Shown here in pieces: positions 30,341-37,157 of a stretch of DNA of 64,000 bases. The position numbers and the translations under genes are program-made. Positions within the stretch are counted from its first letter, which is position 1; each line of letters begins with the position of its first letter. The notes under the pieces are model-generated. The model did not search any database. It was not told the DNA's origin and saw only the letters and a program-made list of their open reading frames with translations. Source of the DNA: Bacteroidota bacterium (lineage in GTDB: Bacteria > Bacteroidota > Bacteroidia > Bacteroidales > UBA4417); the NCBI GenBank assembly GCA_022711175.1, contig JAKLFM010000005.1, forward strand, positions 1-64,000, in the 5' to 3' direction.

Positions 30341-30970
30341 CTACTTCCGTAATTTCAGCTTCTTTTCCTCGCCTCTGATCAACCTTCGGATGTTCTTATG
30401 GTGGGTAATGGGTATAAAAACAGCAATCATAATGGACAATATGATGAGCGCCACCGACTTTTCATGAAAAAGAAAGACTGTAATAAATGGAAAGAGTATT
30501 GCACTGGTGATTGAAGCCAGTGAGACGAAGCCCGAAATGGCAAATACGGTAAAAAACCAAACCAGTACTACCCAGAAAGCCTTTGGAAACAGGGCAATGA
30601 CCACTCCGACCAGCGTAGCGACACCTTTCCCACCCCTGAAACCGGTAAAAACCGGAAAAACATGTCCTGATACAGCCAACACACCCAAAACTATCTGGTA
30701 ATGAACCAGTTGATTGTCATTATAGATACCGGCAGCAAACAGCGGAGCAAGTGCCACAGCACCCCAGCCTTTCAATGCATCGAGCAGCAGGACGATAATC
30801 CCGGCTTTGATTCCCAGTACACGTATCGTATTGGTAGCTCCGGCGTTATGACTTCCCTCGTTGCGCACATCCACACTGTAAAATGCCCTCCCTACCCACA
30901 CTGAAGAGGAAAAAGAACCAAGGAGGTAAGCGATGATGGCACCGGCGAAAATTGGTAGGTAACTGATCAT
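30341..30970 (-). CDS. plsY: Glycerol-3-phosphate acyltransferase PlsY
   Basis: This 209-aa polytopic protein transfers an acyl group from acyl-phosphate to glycerol-3-phosphate, the first step of phospholipid synthesis. The family motifs GSFSSSVWVGR, SHNAGATNTIRVLG and FRGGKGVAT are present in order among about five to six membrane segments. I chose ATG 30970; a TTG five codons earlier is less likely. It closes the leftward series that contains prmA and the 1498-aa gene. Confidence 0.95.
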   Translation of the reverse strand: MISYLPIFAGAIIAYLLGSFSSSVWVGRAFYSVDVRNEGSHNAGATNTIRVLGIKAGIIVLLLDALKGWGAVALAPLFAAGIYNDNQLVHYQIVLGVLAVSGHVFPVFTGFRGGKGVATLVGVVIALFPKAFWVVLVWFFTVFAISGFVSLASITSAILFPFITVFLFHEKSVALIILSIMIAVFIPITHHKNIRRLIRGEEKKLKLRK

Positions 30971-31019
30971 ATTAATGTTTGGCAATCCTAAACGGTTATA
31001 AGATTATTGGAAATGGCTA

Positions 31020-34000
31020 TCACTCCCCGAACGCCTGCTTCATCTTCCTGAGGAACGATGCTTTCTTTTCGTTATTCGATACGATGTACTGGTAGCTCCG
31101 TAATCCGCCACCTGATTTGATGGTACGATCCTTCTCGCTAAGACCTACAAGCTTTTCATTGAAATCCTTATTCGACGAAATGGCCTGCATCACCCCGTTT
31201 GCATAACTGAAATAGTACCAGTGTTTGTCCTCAAGCTCAAAGTAGAATGTGAACTGGTCGCCGGTGCGACGTTTACCAATTTCGAGGTACGAATTCACAT
31301 AACGGTTTAGCATCTCCTTACCAATGCTCATAATACCAACCGGTTCCTTGCTCACAAATGAACGCAACTCAGGATTCCAGGTGAGTTTCATTTCGGCCAG
31401 CATAAGCGTGTGGTTGAGTTCTTCAGGAAACCTCCTGAACTGCCCAAAAGTGCTCAATTCCGACAGTAGTTTTTCAGCGGTCGTAGTATCAAGGAATTCA
31501 GCCAGAGGATAGTTAAACGAAGGCTGCGAAACATCTATTCCTTTCAGGTCGGTAACCTTCAGATCGGTGGCAAACACTTTGAGCGCTTCTTCGGAGAACA
31601 GGAAATCAAATGCGGTGGTAACCCGGAAATCAGCCGAATCGGGAATCATATAGTAATTGGCGCTCCCTGCCGACTTCATAGTGAGCCTTCCCATGTCGTT
31701 TACCATGTTCAGTTTGCCGCTGCCACTTAGTATGCATTGCGATGTATTGAAAGCAAGTGTATTTCCGGGTTTGGACGGATACTGGAACTTTTCCTTAGGT
31801 GCGATTTTATATCCTCCCCTCAGTGTATCGTACATTATAAAACCTGTAGCAGCTATAATATCCTGGTCATTAATATTTTCGGGCTTCACAAAAAACGCCG
31901 GCAGCAAGCCCTGTTTTGTGGTTGAATAGAGAATAGACGTTCTGAGGTTACCGTTGCCCCTGTTTTCCATATCGCTGGTAACCGGTATCATTATGTTTCG
32001 CGGATCAAGGCGGGCATTAAGTTTAATCCATTCGTGGCCTATTGCTTCACAGTCGTGCACCAGGTTGAAGGTTCCCTGGAAACGCAGCATCTCGTCAGCG
32101 GCATTAATCTCAATATCGCCTTCAAAACCAAAATGGTCACTTAGTTTGAACTGGTCTGCTTCACTTACAGTTGTCAGCGCATAGGTTTGTTTGTTTTCAT
32201 CAACGCCGATCTTGTTCATCTGGAGCGTCTGTATCTCGCCATCACCAGGTTTATAATCATAGAGTCCTTTACCGCCGAAGTGCGTCCTCGAGCTGATCAT
32301 TACATCGGCATTGTACAATTCGTGAAACCGGGTGTTGGTATTCGCGATGATGGATGTACCTTTCAGTTCATGCATAAGACCGTCCCTGCCAATAGTCACC
32401 TCACCGTTAACCGGGAAAATAGCTGCATCGGCCACTCTTATTATCCTTGCATCCAGTACTTTAAGAACATTTTCATTGAGGTCGTAATTTGCCCGCATGG
32501 CGAAGAACCCTAACGAATCCTGCTGAGGGTCGCTCGAGATGAAGCGGTTCTCTTTTTCAGGAATCTTTAAGAGTTGCTCCTTGTTCATGCGTTGGTATGC
32601 CTCTTCGGTAAAGGTGGTTTTTGCCTGCAACTGCAATGTTTTCTTATCCATCATCCAGTCAAAAGCATCCACGAGGCTGATATACCGGTTAACCGGGAAT
32701 TCCATTTTCGATCCCTTGCCCGAAGCGGTGAAATGTCCAAGTCGCGTGTTGAAATCAACTTCGCTGCGATAAACATGCACACTTAACACTGTTGATTTAT
32801 GATCAGGTGTGAACAAAGTGAAGTCCGAGATTTCAGAAGTAAAATCATTGGTTCCGAAATCGAACGAATTTGAACTCACCAGGGCATCTTCAAAGGTCAT
32901 ATTGCCGCGGCCTTTCAACGCAGCAGGTGTGAGTTCGAGTGCCCCGCTCAGTTTCGCATGGTTGTGAAAAAGGTTAATGCTGTCGCCAGGCAGGTTGCTT
33001 ACGGTCATAACATCTTTGCCCGGTAACCATTTCACTTTTGATTCGTTAATGGCAACTTCGGGATAGTCGGCAGCGGCGGCAGTTTCTTTGAGATTGAAGT
33101 TTTTGAGCGTTGCGGTGGTGGAATCGGGAGTAAAGAGAAAGTCTTTTGAAACAGCTTTCGAGGCAAGGTAATTTAGCTTGCCTGATCCGCGAAGCCCGTT
33201 ATTGCTGAGTTTAAGCGTATCGCTGTACATACCGGAACCTGCGTACACCGGCAGGCCTCCTTCCGGAAGCTTTTTGATAAACCCGAGCGAGTAATCCTTT
33301 TGCACCCACAGAGGTTCATCAATAACCGGGAACATGCTTCCGGTATTGAGGTGCCCCTGGAATTTGAGGTTAACTGTGGGCAGGTGATTCAGGCTGTCCA
33401 TTATGTAAGGATCAACGCTGTAATAAAAGTTATCGCGCTTGTAAACCCCGTTCACAATACTTCTCTTATCGAAAAACACATACGAAATGTCTTTACTCTC
33501 GAATATCGGGTAATTTTTCAGCGATTTACTGCCCGATTTATTCGCCGGATCATCAATCTGCAGTTCGCCACTCATATCCGAAACTACGTTTTTTACCCTG
33601 ATTAAAGGCCTGTAGCCGTTTATATCAGGTTGCCAGGCGTAAACATACATCGCCATCGAATCAATGTTGGGCAGGTTCATGCGGAACTTGCTGTAGTCGA
33701 ATGTTGATTCGTTGGAATAGAACTCGAAGAAACCGGCATGAACACGTCCGGTAAAGGAGAAATCACGGTTTTTCTTCATTATAATCCTGCCGTCGCGCGG
33801 CACAACAAACACGTACTGCGAATCGCTGAGCATTACCTGCTGAACCCCGTATAGGGTGAGATTCAGGGACTTAAGATCGAGAATCGCATTGCTGCCCTTT
33901 TCAACTGTTGAGTAGAATTGTATGATGTCGTAATCTTTAAACCCGCCACGGGCAGCGAGAAATTCATTAAGCCTTGGTTTTACTTTAACAAAATCATTAT

Positions 34001-35516
34001 CAAAATCGTAGATGATAAAACCGGCGTTTGCTAGCCTTATCAGCTGCACCCTTACCTGTTCAAGCGGCATTTTTATGTATTCGGCATATTCGTCGGCATA
34101 AAACCGGTCAATTCCATGTTTCCGCACATAGGTAGAGACAAGGTTAGCAGGATTAACTTCATCCATTCCCTGCATCCGGTCGTAGCGGTATCGCGAAAAA
34201 TAGTCGGCAGACTCAAACAACGCATCACTTTTATCCCTGGGACCCCTTACAGCTTCAAGGCTGAGTATGTCATCGTTCATTCTCCAGTAGATCGCTTCGG
34301 GATACATGTCAACCAGGTGATAGCTGTTGAAAAAAGGGCTTTGTTGCAACCCTTCTTCAAGCCGTGTAAAAGCAAACTCGTTGGTTGATTTATTGTACCT
34401 CACCTGCAAACCGGGATGATAGATTGAGTCGTTACCGATATAAATAGTGGTATTGGAACGTGCTGCAACGAATCGGTCGGGCCTGATAACAAACTCATTG
34501 GAGCTGAGTTCGATAAACGGCAGATTATTTCTTTTTACATGAATTATGGCTGTTGATTGGTTTATCCCTGTTCCCAGCATGCGCGCACCTTCGATGGCGA
34601 AACTACCTTCATAATCAATATTGTTGAAAAGGTTGTGAATGAAAAGATCGCCGCTGTATGCCGAAAATCGCGGATACGTTGCCCTGTCGGGATCTACATC
34701 GGTAATCACACGTTCCTCGAAATGTCCGGCAAGGGCATTTCCGAAATAACCTTTATGAACAAAAGCCACTGTGTCAGCCGTATAAGAGGTAAGTCTCATG
34801 TTTATCCGGTACGAGGAAAGCGTTACAAAGACGCTGTCGCGTTTGAGGCCTACCCTATCCCAGAATACTTTTCCGCCGGTTCCCGTCCATTGCTGTGTTA
34901 AAGGAAAGTACAAGCCTTTGGAACCGTATATGCCGGTGCTGTCGCCACGCCCGATACAGGCAAGGGTAACTGAGGAAAACCTGAATACCGGAACCGTATC
35001 AAAGGCGAATTCGAACTCGCCGTTTCGGGCGTACCAGGCTTCGGTTTTTGTTTGGAAGAATGCCCTTTCGGCCAACAGCAGATTAGTCTGTGAGAAGTAG
35101 GTACTTAGTTTCTGTGCACTGTTTTTTCCTTCGAGACAATAATTTATGCTGAAATAGTGCGTATCAAAAGCCTTTGCGGGCATATTGCGACGGACCATCA
35201 GCGCAATGCTTCGCAGATAACCAATGAAGTGCGGCGACACTTTGAGTTTCTGTTCTGCCATGCCGTTGCACACAGCCATGGCCTGCTTCTTCTGAACGGG
35301 AGTGAGCAGATTGGCAGTCCACTGATAAGTAAAATCCGACAGTACTTCGCGGGCTTCTTTGGCATCGTTGTCACCCACATTCTTAAAAAACTCGGTAAGG
35401 TCAGCAATGAAAAGAGTTGAGTCGGCTGAGAATGGTTGCTTTGCATCCTGCTGAGCAAAGATTACTTCGGAAACCAGCAACAGAATTAACAATCCGATCA
35501 ACCGATAAGGTTTCAT
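31020..35516 (-). CDS. Very large secreted protein of unknown function
   Basis: This 1498-aa protein is the largest in the window and I cannot assign a function. It has a clear signal peptide (residues 1-22, ending IFAQ). A helical N-terminal domain (~25-160) is followed by hundreds of residues with the alternating pattern of beta-strands, punctuated by phrases such as GNDSIYHPGLQVRYN and DFSFTGRVHAGFFEFY that recall stacked OstA/LptA- or AsmA-like repeats. Around residues 450-540 lies a compact helical segment (MPLEQVRVQLIRLANAGFII region) resembling a winged helix, odd for an exported protein. There is no membrane barrel-type final phenylalanine. It starts 2 bp after prmA, so translation is probably coupled. 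I infer an envelope role. Confidence 0.85.
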   Translation of the reverse strand: MKPYRLIGLLILLLVSEVIFAQQDAKQPFSADSTLFIADLTEFFKNVGDNDAKEAREVLSDFTYQWTANLLTPVQKKQAMAVCNGMAEQKLKVSPHFIGYLRSIALMVRRNMPAKAFDTHYFSINYCLEGKNSAQKLSTYFSQTNLLLAERAFFQTKTEAWYARNGEFEFAFDTVPVFRFSSVTLACIGRGDSTGIYGSKGLYFPLTQQWTGTGGKVFWDRVGLKRDSVFVTLSSYRINMRLTSYTADTVAFVHKGYFGNALAGHFEERVITDVDPDRATYPRFSAYSGDLFIHNLFNNIDYEGSFAIEGARMLGTGINQSTAIIHVKRNNLPFIELSSNEFVIRPDRFVAARSNTTIYIGNDSIYHPGLQVRYNKSTNEFAFTRLEEGLQQSPFFNSYHLVDMYPEAIYWRMNDDILSLEAVRGPRDKSDALFESADYFSRYRYDRMQGMDEVNPANLVSTYVRKHGIDRFYADEYAEYIKMPLEQVRVQLIRLANAGFIIYDFDNDFVKVKPRLNEFLAARGGFKDYDIIQFYSTVEKGSNAILDLKSLNLTLYGVQQVMLSDSQYVFVVPRDGRIIMKKNRDFSFTGRVHAGFFEFYSNESTFDYSKFRMNLPNIDSMAMYVYAWQPDINGYRPLIRVKNVVSDMSGELQIDDPANKSGSKSLKNYPIFESKDISYVFFDKRSIVNGVYKRDNFYYSVDPYIMDSLNHLPTVNLKFQGHLNTGSMFPVIDEPLWVQKDYSLGFIKKLPEGGLPVYAGSGMYSDTLKLSNNGLRGSGKLNYLASKAVSKDFLFTPDSTTATLKNFNLKETAAAADYPEVAINESKVKWLPGKDVMTVSNLPGDSINLFHNHAKLSGALELTPAALKGRGNMTFEDALVSSNSFDFGTNDFTSEISDFTLFTPDHKSTVLSVHVYRSEVDFNTRLGHFTASGKGSKMEFPVNRYISLVDAFDWMMDKKTLQLQAKTTFTEEAYQRMNKEQLLKIPEKENRFISSDPQQDSLGFFAMRANYDLNENVLKVLDARIIRVADAAIFPVNGEVTIGRDGLMHELKGTSIIANTNTRFHELYNADVMISSRTHFGGKGLYDYKPGDGEIQTLQMNKIGVDENKQTYALTTVSEADQFKLSDHFGFEGDIEINAADEMLRFQGTFNLVHDCEAIGHEWIKLNARLDPRNIMIPVTSDMENRGNGNLRTSILYSTTKQGLLPAFFVKPENINDQDIIAATGFIMYDTLRGGYKIAPKEKFQYPSKPGNTLAFNTSQCILSGSGKLNMVNDMGRLTMKSAGSANYYMIPDSADFRVTTAFDFLFSEEALKVFATDLKVTDLKGIDVSQPSFNYPLAEFLDTTTAEKLLSELSTFGQFRRFPEELNHTLMLAEMKLTWNPELRSFVSKEPVGIMSIGKEMLNRYVNSYLEIGKRRTGDQFTFYFELEDKHWYYFSYANGVMQAISSNKDFNEKLVGLSEKDRTIKSGGGLRSYQYIVSNNEKKASFLRKMKQAFGE

Positions 35517-35518
35517 AC

Positions 35519-36361
35519 TTAGTTTCCTGATTTTTTTATGAACCTGGCTGCTACCCAGTTATTTTCTGCTTGATTGTCAAGCAATTCCAAACCCGATTTC
35601 GAGGCGCTGCCGATAATTGCAGGCAGGTCTTCGGTGTAAAAACCGCTCATGAACAGCAGTCCGCCCTCATTCAGACAAGATGAGTATGAACTGATATCGC
35701 GCTGGAGTATGTTCCTGTTGATATTGGCCATGATGATATCAAAATGCCGGCCATTGAGTAACCCGGCATCACCCAGATAAACGCTCACATCGCCTGTGTT
35801 ATTATGGGCCAGGTTTTTAATGGAATTGTTGTACGCCCATTCGTCGTTGTCAATTGCAGTTACCGGCGTGGCACCGAGTTTACGCGCGAGAATGGCAAGT
35901 GCCGCTGTTCCGCAGCCCATGTCAAGGAAACTTTTCCCTTTCAACACACTATCGAGCAAATACCTGAGCATGAGCCGTGTAGTTTCATGATGCGCAGTAC
36001 CAAACGACATTTCCGGTTCGATAACTACCTCCAGTGGAATATTGTCTGGTTTGCTGTGGAATGGTGAACGAATGATCAGCCTGTTGTCAATGATTACAGG
36101 GTCGTAATCGCTCTCCCAAACTGCGTTCCAGTTTCGGTCTCGTATCAGTTCCGATTCAAAGGAAGTATAATAGCGTGAAATTTCGCTTCCTGTTAGTTCC
36201 TTATCTGTGCTTTTGCCAAACCCGGCAGCCGGTATATAAGCTTTGAGTATTTGAGGTTCCTCAACAAAGCTTTCAAATCCTAATTCGGCGAGCATGGCAA
36301 TAAGCATATCGCCGGCCTGGGCCACATCGGCAAGCCTGAAACGCACTTCGTAGTAATCCAT
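35519..36361 (-). CDS. prmA: Ribosomal protein L11 methyltransferase
   Basis: This 280-aa enzyme uses S-adenosylmethionine to methylate ribosomal protein L11. The SAM-binding motif FLDMGCGTAALAILA lies about residues 155-170, and the substrate-site motif MANINRNIL follows at about 225; the N-terminal substrate-recognition domain is present. I chose ATG 36361 (MDYYEVRF) because the longer open frame overlaps tpiA. It sits 31 bp after tpiA and 2 bp before the 1498-aa gene. Confidence 0.95.
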   Translation of the reverse strand: MDYYEVRFRLADVAQAGDMLIAMLAELGFESFVEEPQILKAYIPAAGFGKSTDKELTGSEISRYYTSFESELIRDRNWNAVWESDYDPVIIDNRLIIRSPFHSKPDNIPLEVVIEPEMSFGTAHHETTRLMLRYLLDSVLKGKSFLDMGCGTAALAILARKLGATPVTAIDNDEWAYNNSIKNLAHNNTGDVSVYLGDAGLLNGRHFDIIMANINRNILQRDISSYSSCLNEGGLLFMSGFYTEDLPAIIGSASKSGLELLDNQAENNWVAARFIKKSGN

Positions 36362-36392
36362 TTCGATGTAAGCTTCCTGCAGGTATGAGAAT

Positions 36393-37157
36393 TTATTTCT
36401 TGAATGAGTTGAGGATGGTGACAAAATCCTCGGCTTTGAGCGAAGCGCCACCAATGAGGCCGCCATCCACGTCGGGTTGGGAGAACAATTCCGCTGCATT
36501 TTTGGCATTGCAACTTCCGCCATAAAGAATTACTGTTTCAGCCGCAACAGTTTCGCCATACTTATCGGCAACAAGGCCACGTATAAATGCGTGCATTTCC
36601 TGCGCCTGTGCAGGTGTAGCCGTAACACCGGTACCAATGGCCCAAACCGGTTCGTAGGCGATGATGATCTTACTGAAATCCTCTTTCGTAAGACTGAAGA
36701 GGGCCTCATTCACCTGGTTACGCACGACTTCGAAATGGTTCGATTTTTCGCGTTCGGCCAGAACCTCGCCACAGCAATAGATAGGTACAAGCTCATGTTT
36801 GAGTGCCAGGGCAACCTTGCTTTTTATGATGGTATCGGTTTCACCAAAATAGGTTCTGCGTTCTGAATGGCCCAGTATCACGTGGGTGATGCCCATGGAG
36901 CCGATCATGGCCGCTGAAACTTCGCCTGTATAGGCTCCTGATTCATGGTCGTTAACATTCTGCGCACCTACAAAGAAATCGTTTTCAACGCCGATATCGC
37001 TGGCCATTTCAAGGAAAGGCGATGGTGGGCAAATGATAACAGTTGTATCGCCTTTGCCACGCTCATTCATCAGGTCGGCTATTTCGTAGAGTAAATCTTC
37101 AGCTTCCTGAAAAGTGGTGTTCATTTTCCAGTTTCCGGCAACAATTTTGCTTCTCAT
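36393..37157 (-). CDS. tpiA: Triose-phosphate isomerase
   Basis: This 254-aa TIM-barrel enzyme interconverts dihydroxyacetone phosphate and glyceraldehyde-3-phosphate. The catalytic residues are visible: K11 in NWKMN, H97 in LGHSERR and E169 in [11 protein letters not shown]. The phosphate-binding loop YGGSCNAKN and GLIGGASL are intact. It is part of the leftward series between the permease gene and prmA. Confidence 0.98.

Follow-up and report, generated by a model that had tools for sequence, protein, structure and literature searches.

We analyzed a stretch of 64,000 nucleotides (the window) that forms positions 1 to 64,000 of the forward strand of contig JAKLFM010000005.1, from a Bacteroidota bacterium of the order Bacteroidales (assembly GCA_022711175.1). 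The host genome is 3.6 Mb in 222 contigs, and the window lies inside a contig of 104.9 kb. Between prmA and plsY, the minus strand carries an open reading frame (ORF) at 31020..35516 that is open throughout, from an ATG at 35516 to a stop at 31020, and specifies 1,498 amino acids; in the matching register, the opposite strand has many stops. This gene, present in one copy in its own genome and without a Pfam or NCBIfam model, is our subject. Its product bears an export signal, and its predicted structure contains beta-jellyroll stacks resembling those of the lipopolysaccharide (LPS) transport proteins LptA, LptC, and LptD, together with an inserted winged helix.

A preliminary description of this DNA, made from its letters, had pointed to a very large ORF lying 2 bp after prmA and ahead of plsY. 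The uninterrupted 1,498 codons, the widespread homologues described below, and the ORF coordinates agree with it. Directly upstream, prmA (35519..36361, minus strand) ends with its stop at 35519, leaving a 2-bp gap before the ATG, and directly downstream the listed plsY ORF (30341..30985) follows after 34 bp on the same strand. For prmA, we reset the start to an internal ATG at 36361, likely the true one, 31 bp after tpiA; the ORF as listed (35519-36523) overlaps tpiA. The same genome holds a second, divergent PlsY-like match at G000:C212:48170-48616 (E = 3.7e-18).

Export signal and sequence searches

Residues 1 to 21 (35454..35516, minus strand) form a predicted signal peptide, probably cleaved before Gln22. 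In an alignment of 77 sequences, Gln stands at residue 22 in 76 and is preceded by Ala, Ser, or Gly in 73. According to one paper, a Gln after the cleavage site marks signal peptidase I substrates in Bacteroidetes (the Q-rule; PMC10653852), and another likewise gives the rule for Sec/signal peptidase I substrates of this group (PMC5837995). Only one of the 77 sequences has a lipobox-like motif, and two have a strongly hydrophobic segment after the signal peptide. Export is well supported by these residues, which indicate a Sec signal cleaved by signal peptidase I rather than a TamB-type anchor and suggest a mature protein that either is soluble in the periplasm or sits peripherally at the outer membrane.

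The protein falls in none of the sequence families searched. Against Pfam, at an E value of 0.1, none of 32 members matched OstA/LptA/LptC or TamB/AsmA models; the best weak matches were DUF2204 at 0.0061, in 1 of the 32, and INT_rpt at 0.068, for the window protein. NCBIfam matched neither the window protein nor any of 13 members. PDB sequence searches, run with the protein by itself as well as with profiles, returned nothing significant, the weak or chance-level matches being a sialidase (0.047), antibody chains, a U-box protein (0.076), and, for the winged-helix segment, TFE (0.0091). A literature search over titles and the openings of abstracts, with most subscription papers and bioRxiv outside its scope, turned up no description of the family.

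Predicted structure

We modeled the protein with AlphaFold2 in two overlapping pieces, residues 22 to 960 and 620 to 1498, from 77-row alignments of the window protein and 76 relatives. The mean predicted local distance difference test score (pLDDT) was 91.3 for the first piece and 89.6 for the second. Behind the signal peptide, the models place an N-terminal domain of six helices (residues 33 to 150; 35067..35420, this and all following features on the minus strand), for which PDB sequence profiles gave no relative. Then come a first OstA/LptC-like beta-jellyroll (residues 284 to 439; 34200..34667), a winged-helix module (residues 442 to 525; 33942..34193), a middle beta region (residues 549 to 751; 33264..33872), and a second OstA-like beta stack (residues 752 to 1079; 32280..33263). 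A mixed C-terminal domain (residues 1309 to 1498; 31023..31592), with no credible relative by PDB sequence profile, ends the chain in a helix.

Entropy compared over eight regions was lowest, with a mean of 1.62, at residues 526 to 740, the most conserved part. Within it lies a loop with a nearly invariant NKSG motif (residues 655 to 670; 33507..33554), which is mostly without strand or helix in the model. We dropped the idea that this loop is disordered: a pLDDT below 50, at residues 660 to 663, is confined to the C-half model, where the cut end of the piece lies close by, and blocks there score 83 to 89 in the N-half model. In the second stack, residues 756 to 795 repeat as residues 848 to 887, with a score of 20.5; five column shuffles reached no more than 9.5. 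Two cysteines are invariant, Cys1156 (32049..32051; 77 of 77 sequences, and 32 of 32 in alignment A1) and Cys1261 (31734..31736; 77 of 77). They are possible partners in a structural disulfide, which is likely in the periplasm.

Structure comparison points to the Lpt proteins in both halves. With Foldseek, all eight matches of the N half below an E value of 0.001 are LptD entries (best, 8h1s_A, 2.2e-5), as are four of the five of the C half, for which the agreement is less clean. Entry 4q35 is in both lists, titled just "Structure of a membrane protein"; we take it to be LptD. With VIA-align, the first 14 rows for the N half are all Lpt proteins (LptD, LptC, and LptH; Z of 9.3 to 11.6). The first jellyroll matches LptC 6mit_C at Z 10.7 (131 residues aligned, root mean square deviation [RMSD] of 3.1 Å), and LptD 9fz5_A at Z 10.8 (139 aligned, 3.0 Å); LptH has Z 10.2 (123 aligned, 3.9 Å). 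For the C half, Lpt proteins fill 15 of the 16 top rows (Z of 6.6 to 10.7). Residues 752 to 928 match LptD 9a39, itself a model entry, at Z 10.7 (155 aligned, 3.5 Å); residues 851 to 995 match LptA 2r1a_G at Z 8.3 (118 aligned, 3.0 Å); residues 816 to 1079 match LptC 6mit_C at Z 8.8; and the second stack also matches LptD 5iv9_A at Z 8.7 (148 aligned, 3.8 Å). These overlapping registers suggest that the modeled second stack is a repetitive jellyroll exceeding one LptA unit. Beyond the Lpt and winged-helix groups, rows are mostly at Z 3 to 6; an exception is the TCP10 domain of CPAP, a single-layer beta protein, at Z 6.8 to 8.5 and an RMSD of 6.1 to 7.5 Å. Neither a TamB structure nor a repeating-beta-groove fold is listed among the VIA-align rows, which excludes nothing. 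From the models, at least the first stack very probably has an OstA-type architecture.

The preliminary description had read a signal peptide, beta-strand repeats, and a winged helix near residues 450 to 540 from the sequence. Each recurs in these results: the N-terminal shape and Gln22, the beta-rich models and the internal repeat, and the modeled module at residues 442 to 525 with its match to the MarR family.

The winged helix

In VIA-align, residues 448 to 524 match OhrR (2pex_A) at Z 9.0 (68 aligned, 2.1 Å). YusO and further MarR proteins score only slightly lower, so that the matches to this family lie at Z 8 to 9. A profile of the segment found weak PDB matches, with E values from 0.0091, mostly to what we take to be winged-helix proteins. 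The LptD alignments extend to about residue 548, mostly with about 130 to 160 residues aligned, which implies that they pass over this module; in the models it thus seems to be an insertion close to where the first jellyroll ends.

An envelope sensor or regulator could use a MarR-like module of this kind to bind nucleic acid, for instance once proteolysis has released it. We consider this extremely unlikely. A MarR regulator would work in the cytoplasm with a basic, conserved recognition helix, and here we found an export signal and a putative recognition helix (residues 485 to 500) with a mean net charge of +0.36, about +0.4, and many variable positions. Over residues 442 to 525, the mean net charge is +0.47; P456 and G499 are invariant, hydrophobic residues (L492 and L495, for example) are almost invariant, and many other positions vary. 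A protein-interaction module would account for such a pattern better than a specific DNA binder would.

Distribution of the family

Among 60 related genomes, including the bacterium's own, 45 have the family, and single-sequence and profile searches concur; in the high-quality subset, it is present in 41 of 53. A draw across the phylum gave matches in 14 of 392 genomes, again including its own, and the family is therefore scattered outside its core lineages. A scan by two conserved peptides confirmed at least 491 places in named genomes. The best 80 of these, on which all named-locus counts rest, carry Bacteroidota titles (Bacteroidales, Flavobacteriales, Vicingaceae, Marinifilum, Rikenellaceae, and others), save two titled "uncultured bacterium." The closest named relative among the matches listed, at 82% identity, is a metagenome-assembled genome (MAG) titled Lentimicrobiaceae bacterium, and identity among aligned full-length members goes down to 26%. 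Some MAG copies of the gene are broken or end at contig edges. Loci with no frame above 1,400 amino acids were dropped (L013 among 40 loci; L047, L073, L087, and L113 among 80). Alignment A1 comprised the window protein and 31 of 39 full-length proteins, A2 had 13 rows, and A5 to A7 comprised the window protein and 38 of 76 orthologues.

Class-level relatives at loci L124 to L145 (genomes G131, G225, G426, and others) have longer family frames, of about 1,575 to 1,857 amino acids. In several of them the match breaks in two near residue 172, at a point that separates the helical N-terminal domain from the beta part, and these split matches suggest insertions after that domain in some relatives.

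On a quick tree of SprA, a marker of the type IX secretion system (T9SS), family presence takes three changes among the 53 genomes counted: one deep split, G047, and G049. The trait counts exclude six genomes less than 80% complete (G007, G009, G015, G026, G028, and G032) and one without SprA (G023); on the tree, G026 forms a long and uncertain branch. G047 and G049 have empty sites (L258 and L259) inside family-bearing clades, where plsY is kept and its ORF shares 4 bp with that of prmA; their absences are most simply losses. Judged from its presence in relatives and the few changes on the tree, inheritance of the family is vertical.

Gene neighborhood and co-occurrence

Of 71 named loci with room for it, 57 have prmA upstream, on the same strand and no more than 1 kb away (54 of them within 200 bp); of 72 with room on the other side, 42 have plsY downstream at no more than 1 kb (40 of them within 200 bp). 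A dppB-like ABC permease stands three genes upstream at some loci only. The context is stable and of a housekeeping kind, and it points to no pathway.

SprA itself is found in 59 of the 60 genomes, including the bacterium's own. This presence would suit an adhesin or enzyme that is secreted or sits on the surface and whose beta fold resembles OstA only by chance, a very unlikely reading: the gene is single copy, changes little on the tree, and sits in a stable housekeeping context unlike that of adhesins, and the model ends in a helix. Since SprA is nearly universal, its co-occurrence is uninformative on a link to the T9SS.

A minority of loci have large proteins after plsY or in its place. 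Among the 80 loci, large neighbors nearby downstream belong to two clusters, of 10 and 5 members, and the four scanned have either TPR domains or PD40 and SPOR domains. Such neighbors, together with the multidomain build and the near-neutral winged helix, would fit a periplasmic scaffold or assembly factor, its jellyrolls binding proteins instead of lipids and its winged helix and N- and C-terminal domains docking partners such as large outer membrane machines. We regard this as rather unlikely, given that both beta stacks are closest, among the chains compared, to the lipid-carrying Lpt jellyroll.

Five loci (L096, L097, L098, L099, and L108) have a protein of about 2,000 to 2,340 amino acids after the family gene or after plsY; the L108 copy, the sole one of the five scanned, has weak matches to PD40 and SPOR. 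Nearby-cluster members scanned at L105 and L098 are ClpS-like and an M48 peptidase.

Two co-occurrence patterns did not hold. PlsY (at E 1e-15) is found in 37 of the 45 genomes that have the family and in 3 of the 15 that lack it, at first sight a strong link. It finds no support once phylogeny is considered: on the SprA tree, PlsY takes six changes, and the independent pairs, three, or five the other way round, show no concordance and are too few for a test. A single old split can explain the association. The 20 of 60 related genomes in which PlsY was not found at this threshold are about half from one lineage, and some are incomplete; the others must have another route to acylate glycerol-3-phosphate or a divergent PlsY.

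The second pattern concerns TamB. By hand count, 11 of the 15 close relatives without the family have at least two TamB copies, compared with 8 of the 45 with it. This is what might be expected if our protein were a divergent lipid bridge of the AsmA/TamB type, with repeating beta grooves, and its length, about 1,500 amino acids, is that of the TamB in its own genome. We think this improbable. The copy pattern fails in a wider sample, counted over the listed rows at order and class level with two matches taken as two copies, where 65 of 91 genomes without the family and 7 of 13 with it have two TamB matches (hand count), and it has only three independent pairs on the SprA tree. Moreover, TamB has no Pfam match here, hhalign against 25 TamB sequences found no similarity (E = 0.3) in a test that did not connect OstA_2 with TamB either, and the signal peptide looks cleaved. 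The preliminary description had left a choice between LptA/OstA- and AsmA-like repeats. The former is supported by the fold matches of both halves; the latter is not supported, given the missing Pfam and profile matches, the apparent cleavage, and a TamB encoded elsewhere in the same genome.

Proposed role

We propose that the protein is a soluble, periplasmic, single-chain Lpt-like lipid conduit or lipid chaperone, and we rate the chances of this reading as about even. It would be exported by Sec and cleaved before Gln22. At least two OstA/LptA-type jellyroll stacks, linked by the highly conserved middle beta region and capped at the two ends by the helical N-terminal and mixed C-terminal domains, would hold the acyl chains of a lipid in a putative groove, by analogy with LptC-LptA-LptD, and shield it in transit between the membranes. 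Candidate lipids are a phospholipid, LPS/lipid A, or another envelope lipid. The winged helix might serve as a docking or gating module between proteins, since contact with DNA is implausible for a periplasmic protein. We infer lipid binding and a span across the periplasm from the modeled fold, which favors lipid handling; cargo, direction, and partners are likewise putative. The combination of an Lpt fold with a profile, context, and size that are not those of Lpt, and with separate OstA_2 and TamB proteins in the genome, means that this protein cannot be classed as LptA, LptD, or TamB. Only tentatively, and with less conviction, do we suggest that it is a second Lpt-like trans-envelope conduit of Bacteroidota, a single chain with a continuous groove gated or docked by its winged helix, which would work beside Lpt and the translocation and assembly module (TAM).

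Several results weigh against the conduit or chaperone proposal. Lipid binding does not follow from a beta-jellyroll fold. The Foldseek list for the C half is headed by teneurin-3 (E = 1.2e-4, probability 0.09, template modeling [TM] score 0.06), and over whole halves the LptD rows have TM-scores below 0.2 and an RMSD above 30 Å, so only single domains match LptD. Eight of the 15 top Lpt rows for the C half in VIA-align span separate parts at an RMSD of 34 to 37 Å; rows of this half that reach into the LptD barrel have an RMSD in this range. The predicted TM-scores, 0.72 for residues 22 to 960 and 0.63 for residues 620 to 1498, leave the arrangement of the domains uncertain. At the sequence level, hhalign against 25 OstA_2 proteins found no similarity (E = 0.093, probability 0.6%); a control comparison of OstA_2 with TamB gave no match either, and the test may therefore miss such remote kinship. 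No gene for an ABC transporter or outer membrane partner is consistently adjacent among the nearest genes compared at the 80 loci, and the correlations with PlsY and TamB number are both unsupported on the SprA tree. Finally, the family is absent from 12 of the 53 high-quality genomes and from 378 of the 392 in the phylum draw; therefore, the gene is not universally required.

Two findings had been named in advance as counting against a conserved envelope role: a well-known enzyme or receptor fold and a lack of homologues in related genomes. The structure prediction contained no credible fold of either kind, the teneurin-3 row notwithstanding, and homologues are plentiful, both in related and in named genomes.

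Comparison with known systems

How phospholipids and other lipids are delivered to the outer membrane is an open question, and Bacteroidota have received little attention here. A single-copy family of about 1,500 amino acids, present at hundreds of places in Bacteroidota genomes, with a confidently predicted LPS-bridge fold and no Pfam or NCBIfam match among the members scanned, is a concrete, testable candidate, which, if our proposal is true, may be an unrecognized lipid bridge toward the outer membrane. A winged helix would also be put to unusual use in a periplasmic protein of this kind.

Residues 442 to 525 share their fold with the MarR family (OhrR and YusO), from which they differ in being inserted in an exported beta protein and in a recognition-helix region that is near-neutral and variable. 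TamB and AsmA-like proteins, which are thought to pass lipids (PMC12045153), are similarly large, beta-rich envelope proteins, and TamB also has about 1,500 amino acids; unlike them, our protein shows neither an inner-membrane anchor nor the PF04357 domain of TamB. The main text of the same paper names AsmA-like proteins of Flavobacterium johnsoniae and nowhere LptA or OstA. The OstA-like proteins of Bacteroidota (OstA_2, PF13100) are also of OstA type and occur in the same organisms (57 of 60 genomes, including the bacterium's own), but they are mostly about 480 to 660 amino acids long (one has 872), are encoded elsewhere (on contig C27 in its own genome), and have no profile similarity to our protein.

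The likeness is greatest to LptA, LptC, and the N-terminal domain of LptD, which give the best VIA-align fold in both halves (Z of 8 to 11.6) and are likewise exported and built as beta stacks. Our protein has no sequence-family match to them, and it differs in its inserted winged helix, its extra N- and C-terminal domains, and its prmA/plsY context. Where those systems use small subunits, here the corresponding architecture is predicted within a single chain of about 1,500 amino acids.

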